Shown here in pieces: positions 9,414 through 9,492 of a DNA stretch of 11,343 nucleotides. Source of the stretch: Acidiferrobacterales bacterium (GTDB taxonomy: Bacteria; Pseudomonadota; Gammaproteobacteria; Acidiferrobacterales; Sulfurifustaceae); assembly GCA_919902095.1 (NCBI GenBank), contig CAKKQL010000077.1, positions 1-11,343 on the forward strand. The letters run 5' to 3'. The stretch's first letter is position 1. Every line of letters begins with the position of its first letter. The position numbers and the translations under genes were made by a program. Below the pieces are notes generated by a model, which did no database searches, was not told the origin of the DNA, and saw only the letters and a program-made list of their open reading frames with translations.

Positions 9414-9424
9414 AGCATGTGTTG

Positions 9425-9438
9425 GTTCCACGTGGAAC
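9425..9438. promoter_or_regulatory. parS site (ParB-binding), copy 1
   Basis: GTTCCACGTGGAAC is a perfect 14-base palindrome and matches the core of the chromosomal parS consensus TGTTNCACGTGNAACA. The outermost positions of the 16-mer (G and T) do not match. It lies 11 bases upstream of the gyrB ATG. parS sites bind ParB for chromosome segregation and usually cluster near oriC, which agrees with the dnaA/dnaN neighbourhood. Confidence 0.88.
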
Positions 9439-9449
9439 TGAAACAACGA

Positions 9450-9463
9450 GTTCCACGTGGAAC
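9450..9463. promoter_or_regulatory. parS site (ParB-binding), copy 2
   Basis: Second exact copy of GTTCCACGTGGAAC, with a matching A at the right outer position (15 of 16 consensus bases). It is 11 bases from copy 1, a centre-to-centre spacing of 25 bp. Both copies fill much of the dnaN-gyrB spacer and would be transcribed in the gyrB leader. Confidence 0.9.
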
Positions 9464-9492
9464 AACCGGATTCGATTTACACCAATCGGTGA

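Follow-up and report, generated by a model that had tools for sequence, protein, structure and literature searches.

A highly probable tandem parS pair between dnaN and gyrB in the recF-free origin-region cluster of an Acidiferrobacterales bacterium

In chromosomal ParABS systems, each parS site nucleates ParB, which forms CTP-dependent clamps that slide away along the adjacent DNA; ParA moves the resulting partition complex, which often loads SMC. The distribution of parS was reportedly surveyed by Livny et al. in 2007. In Pseudomonas aeruginosa, parS1 and parS2 are oriC-proximal sites embedded in recF, in the dnaA–dnaN–recF–gyrB cluster, according to two reports (PMC5521831, PMC3909081), and a third states that one origin-proximal site among parS1–parS4 suffices for segregation and that Caulobacter crescentus has a single locus of tandem parS (PMC4368675). 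A Caulobacter transposon screen identified recF–gyrB as a hot spot for extra parS, with an unexplained mechanism (PMC5815017), and a related palindrome, the Noc-binding site (NBS), is described as bound by a ParB paralogue (PMC7383237). Both parS within recF and tandem parS (in Caulobacter) are therefore already known. Here we analysed a window of 11,343 bp (contig CAKKQL010000077.1 of assembly GCA_919902095.1, an Acidiferrobacterales bacterium) in which two identical palindromes lie side by side between dnaN and gyrB.

The palindrome pair and its highly probable identity as parS

On the minus strand of the window, NCBIfam matches give the gene order dnaA (3′ part), dnaN, gyrB, a cluster that we took as the origin marker and within which the pair sits. 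The gyrB gene (DNA gyrase subunit B; NF011501, 1294.5 bits) spans 6996–9413 and dnaN (sliding clamp; TIGR00663, 367.5 bits) spans 9493–10593, both on the minus strand, while dnaA runs off the window at 10817–11341 on the same strand, covering profile positions 266–436 of TIGR00362 and falling under the whole-protein cut-off because the gene is cut. The cluster lacks recF, whose place in E. coli is between dnaN and gyrB; the position that recF takes in relatives is here a 79-bp spacer (9414–9492, minus strand). On the far side of gyrB and convergent with it is an ArsM-like methyltransferase gene (5817–6938), whose best NCBIfam match, NF040538, is below cut-off (338.1 of 500 bits).

Within this spacer GTTCCACGTGGAAC is present twice as an exact palindrome. 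The gyrB-proximal copy, at 9425–9438, starts 25 bp and ends 12 bp upstream of the gyrB ATG, and the dnaN-proximal copy, identical in sequence at 9450–9463, begins at base 30 of the spacer counted after the dnaN stop. A preliminary description of this DNA had reported two identical palindromes 25 bp apart with an 11-bp gap; the copies are indeed exact, 25 bp from start to start, with the gap at 9439–9449, and none of 200 dinucleotide shuffles of the window contained two matches even with up to two mismatches allowed (mean 0.05, largest 1). Across the order's 15 other exact pairs the gap ranges from 10 to 27 bp, and its sequence is unconserved by eye. Both copies contain the core palindrome GTTNCACGTGNAAC exactly, and neither matches the extended 16-mer TGTTNCACGTGNAACA, the consensus and search probe proposed in the preliminary description, which would have missed both (outer bases G..T and A..A on the plus strand). 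Relatives are variable at these outer positions too, which makes the 14-mer GTTNCACGTGNAAC preferable for searching, and we do not treat the 16-mer as defining.

Other features of the region were recorded alongside. The gyrB frame can be extended through the gyrB-proximal site from a TTG at 9446 (window 9414–9446), where it reads ...FHVEP...; the likeness of FHVEP to a parS-encoded peptide of RecF is probably a coincidence of frame, and the TTG may be an alternative GyrB start. Two matches to the DnaA-box-like motif TTWTNCACA lie at 9262–9270, inside gyrB, and at 10644–10652, in the dnaA–dnaN spacer, a number reached in 9 of 200 shuffles. A plasmid collection queried with the gyrB start region returned 27 records, and the 20 matches listed fell in gyrB or in no annotated feature.

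The two palindromes are almost certainly parS, the putative ParB sites of a chromosomal ParABS system. Across 13 near-relative genomes, exact sites number two in 12 genomes and one in the other, all of them at the dnaN–gyrB locus, with 0 or 1 occurrence per genome of a reversed control pattern. A 14-mer common across the whole chromosome had been named in advance as grounds for abandoning a parS identity; it is common in none of the 13. ParB, whose occurrence had likewise been raised, is encoded in all 13 (TIGR00180, over cut-off), and in the nearest relative (G001, contig C70) parB shares a contig with parS at a distance of about 19 kb. When compared by eye with Caulobacter ParB, all 13 proteins keep R173 and G201 (Caulobacter numbering), residues described as invariant among ParB orthologues and altered in Noc (PMC7383237).

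We collected 19 spacers, 72–159 bp long, from the 18 RecF-less genomes of the order with adjacent dnaN and gyrB and from the window; a scan allowing up to two mismatches found 36 sites, 35 of them exact, set in flanks that vary. At the two free positions of the 14-mer only C/T and G/A occur (33 copies); exact matches having been preselected, the invariance of the fixed positions holds by construction, and 35 of 36 at up to two mismatches is the fair figure. Near-invariant sites, limited free positions and varying flanks together fit protein–DNA recognition. The 35 exact sites lie in 2,055 bp of spacer; shuffling the spacers 2,000 times produced none. The parS identity originally proposed thus gains strong support from the rarity of the 14-mer in near-relative genomes, the 35 exact spacer sites and the parS-type residues of the relatives' ParBs.

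Among the matches listed, G049 has one more exact site beyond its pair, about 13 kb away, and one-mismatch sites elsewhere in RecF-less genomes occur roughly as often as the reversed control, so that weak extra ParB sites may exist there. Repeats of a one-mismatch sequence, GTTAAACGTGAAAC, appear among the matches listed for G046 (C37:8380-8617 and other contigs), a RecF-less genome with only one exact parS.

parS inside recF and after its loss

In the genome collection, the window's DnaN is matched best (70% identity) by a protein of the MAG Gammaproteobacteria bacterium FW104_bin.7 (L001), and further close matches carry the labels Candidatus Muproteobacteria or Acidiferrobacterales. Each of the 80 loci retained from the DnaN search has at least one exact copy of GTTNCACGTGNAAC. 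In the 78 loci with gyrB downstream of dnaN, the two genes are separated by 75–147 bp in five (L001, L002, L003, L006 and L008) and by at least 1,095 bp in the other 73. RecF is present in 34 of the 57 genomes of L001's order and absent from 23, absence being defined as no TIGR00611 match at E 1e-30 (1e-25 for the class) in genomes of unstated completeness.

All 34 RecF-bearing genomes of the order, together with two outgroup genomes, carry two exact parS inside recF, spaced 597–627 bp apart and always by a multiple of three. Both sites stand in one reading frame and encode FHVE (FHVK at the second site in three genomes), which suggests that RecF owes these two short peptide stretches to the underlying DNA site. 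E. coli K-12 RecF (L207) has FHNE at residue 141 and FTVE at residue 348, resembling the parS-encoded FHVE in an unaligned comparison, and the DNA beneath them looks like eroded parS, as expected after par gene loss.

The 23 RecF-less genomes comprise 18 with contiguous dnaN–gyrB, four without a DnaN match (G026, G029, G050 and G054) and one, G044, cut at a contig end; these last five are also the only genomes of the order without an exact site, the other 52 of 57 having one or more, usually two in total. The preliminary description had asked whether related genomes keep both copies: 16 of the 19 RecF-less spacers, that of the window included, hold two exact parS 24–41 bp apart. Three hold one, with a one-mismatch partner in G003, a more degenerate partner by eye in G053 and none seen in G046. 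A tight pair is found in 15 of 23 RecF-less versus 0 of 34 RecF-bearing genomes of the order, and this, together with the roughly 600-bp pairs inside recF, argues that the tight tandem goes with recF loss. The close spacing that had been singled out as unusual is therefore real, but it accompanies the loss of a gene that holds two sites in relatives.

Spacing modulo 10.5 showed no clear preference across the 16 pairs (Rayleigh p about 0.16), arguing against a fixed paired complex, and a phased cooperative complex was dropped as a candidate. The smallest spacing among these pairs is 24 bp, though the scan pattern would detect 19 bp, and this minimum may reflect the footprint of ParB.

To place these states on a phylogeny, we built an order tree from DnaN and GyrB (55 rows), in which the RecF-less genomes form two groups, an 18-row clade that includes the window and G006 among RecF-bearing kin; a single clade of the order's RecF-less genomes was rejected (AU p 0.00034). 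A class-wide tree of 106 selected rows implies at least five changes of RecF state, four of them forced by well-supported branches, with gains and losses undistinguished. RecF-less genomes with spacer parS occupy five places in it: the window clade, G006, the G382/G168/G201 group, G135, and a near-base set with G324, G191 and G384. Three RecF-less rows (G379, G165 and G281) have no spacer parS. This tree took 26 of the 31 RecF-less class genomes in which dnaN adjoins gyrB, the five left out as too divergent (G077, G226, G166, G282 and G380) all being without spacer parS, and 31 RecF-bearing rows from outside the order (24 from L017–L080, the five class loci L154, L156, L164, L167 and L168, and G012/G013). 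The final 106 rows exclude G044, the poorly filled L154, L156 and L167, and the near-duplicate G372; L164 and L168 are under half filled and the RecF-less G135, G274 and G181 are long-branched. With selected and partly long-branched rows, the tree is a guide and not a census.

A class-wide sample of 369 genomes, 295 with RecF, contained a tandem pair within the searched spacing in 21 genomes: 13 of 74 RecF-less versus 8 of 295 RecF-bearing (Fisher p 1.7e-5, kinship uncorrected). The 74 are the remainder after the 295 matches, that is, 71 genomes plus G001, G049 and G056; one genome counted as RecF-less, G167, has a RecF-like stretch by tblastn, so the RecF-less count carries some error. Following the 71, we found DnaN in 46 and none in 25; among the 46, dnaN is next to gyrB in 31, nine have no gyrB in the stretch or a gap above 900 bp, and six lie at or near a contig edge. 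Exact spacer parS is present in 22 of the 31 (two sites in 13, one in nine), and the remainder consists of G388, with two one-mismatch sites at the same locus, and eight genomes without a site. ParB was found in 21 of the 22 genomes with exact spacer parS (not in G274) and in six of the eight without a spacer site. Judged from these sequences, persistence of candidate parS at dnaN–gyrB after recF loss is frequent, not a law.

We consider it highly probable that the window's pair is parS, probably serving as the main centromere, and that its tight tandem belongs with recF loss and does not represent a novel gyrB regulatory element. By analogy with known ParB biology, ParB dimers would recognise each 14-mer, close as CTP-dependent clamps and slide outward, and the ParB–DNA partition complex would be moved by ParA and often load SMC, with the two adjacent parS acting as redundant loading points. 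Less surely, recF may have eroded bit by bit, with both ancestral ParB sites maintained where they were by selection.

A different origin with the same parS function is that recF was lost with its sites, one parS was kept or regained at the recF/gyrB junction, and this site then doubled, a course of events that we think possible and rather less probable. A single exact spacer site is present in nine of the 31 RecF-less class genomes whose dnaN and gyrB are adjacent, as such a course would have it, and the RecF-bearing L154 and L168 combine an internal site with a pair at the recF 3′ end. The tandem pairs of the eight RecF-bearing class genomes, several of them at the 3′ end of recF (L154, L156, L164 and L168), show that recF loss is not required for a pair to arise, which counts against a strict link between the two. 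However, the order offers no tight pair in any of its 34 RecF-bearing genomes, and the flanks of the window's two copies are dissimilar by eye. We saw no recF codons beside the parS sites, so the sequence fits retention of both sites as well as loss followed by re-gain or doubling of one.

Larger numbers of sites also occur. L154, L167 and L168, all RecF-bearing, have three parS each: a single internal recF site plus a tandem pair located at, or close to, the 3′ end of the gene. In the RecF-less L162 (G175), about 14 head-to-tail units of a 43-bp repeat bearing GTTTCACGTGAAAC lie upstream of gyrB (1244–1858), with 12 exact sites and dnaN on a different contig; we read this as a candidate natural parS array, and as a point in favour of doubling.

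Returning to the persistence of parS itself, we put forward, tentatively and as the lesser expectation, that the dnaN–gyrB place is selected as a centromere address in Gammaproteobacteria independently of recF. ParB and SMC loading would then work best here, owing to early replication, the supply of clamp or gyrase, or local DNA topology. If true, selection of the address would also account for the unexplained recF–gyrB hot spot for parS in distant Caulobacter. The host gene of the centromere is gone in separate lineages and parS still stands at the address in most, not all, genomes examined. The importance of the parS address is usually tested by moving sites within one species; lineages that lost recF offer a comparative test of whether the address or the recF coding sequence is under selection.

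gyrB expression and RNA structure

The position of the pair, 12–50 bp upstream of the gyrB start, could also be read as that of a cis-regulator, in which bound or spreading ParB lowers gyrB transcription and links supercoiling to segregation. An excess of ParB lowers gyrB mRNA about twofold in P. aeruginosa, where parS1 and parS2 lie in recF (PMC5521831). However, the same report names only PA0010–PA0015 as raised in parB-null and parS-null strains, not the genes at parS1/parS2, and PMC5815017 describes a parS insertion near gyrB in Caulobacter that leaves gyrB transcription unchanged. Comparative evidence points the same way: in RecF-bearing relatives the first parS lies inside recF, over 600 bp away from gyrB, and the distance from parS to gyrB is variable. 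A −10-like motif near gyrB is found in 9 of 19 RecF-less genomes and is absent in the window (compared with 24 of 36 RecF-bearing genomes; raw counts with no chance control). A search of 9300–10850 found no sigma-70-like promoter (shuffles gave 1.4 on average), and gyrB is probably read together with dnaN. The published tests speak mostly against the putative ParB control of gyrB, and the regulatory role suggested in the preliminary description finds no support in the P. aeruginosa nulls or the Caulobacter insertion; we regard cis-regulation as the pair's main role as improbable.

An RNA element is more doubtful still. The two copies would pair with each other in the dnaN–gyrB message, and the resulting hairpin would control processing, termination or translation of gyrB. 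A 91-nt RNA is predicted to fold at −33.9 kcal/mol (z −4.27, as stable in 0 of 200 shuffles) with copy paired to copy, as the preliminary description had anticipated, and a terminator-like site at 9463–9450 is one of five found (shuffles gave 1.7 on average). The strength of the hairpin follows from two palindromes standing side by side, since two identical palindromes always pair. Moreover, the loop bases of a single copy (ACGT) hardly vary, in keeping with the near-complete exactness of the spacer sites, and the same 14-mer is kept in genomes with one spacer site and in those with sites 600 bp apart. We therefore consider an RNA function very unlikely and retain parS as the reading of the pair.

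Comparison with described parS loci

In open-access titles and abstract openings, we found no description of parS persisting after recF loss or of tandem parS between dnaN and gyrB. The recF-free condensed pair between dnaN and gyrB, recurring in separate RecF-less lineages, is an apparently new arrangement. It shares with parS1/parS2 of P. aeruginosa the placement of ParB sites in the dnaA–dnaN–gyrB region. However, the P. aeruginosa sites lie inside recF and belong to a reported ten parS, whereas the window's cluster has no recF and its sites are 25 bp apart; unlike P. aeruginosa, all 13 near relatives of the window have no exact site elsewhere. The NBS differs from parS at bases 1 and 6 (PMC7383237), and unlike Noc the relatives' ParBs keep the parS-type residues R173 and G201. 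Finally, the window resembles the parS cluster of Caulobacter crescentus in carrying parS in tandem, but the Caulobacter cluster adjoins parAB, whereas the pair described here stands between dnaN and gyrB.
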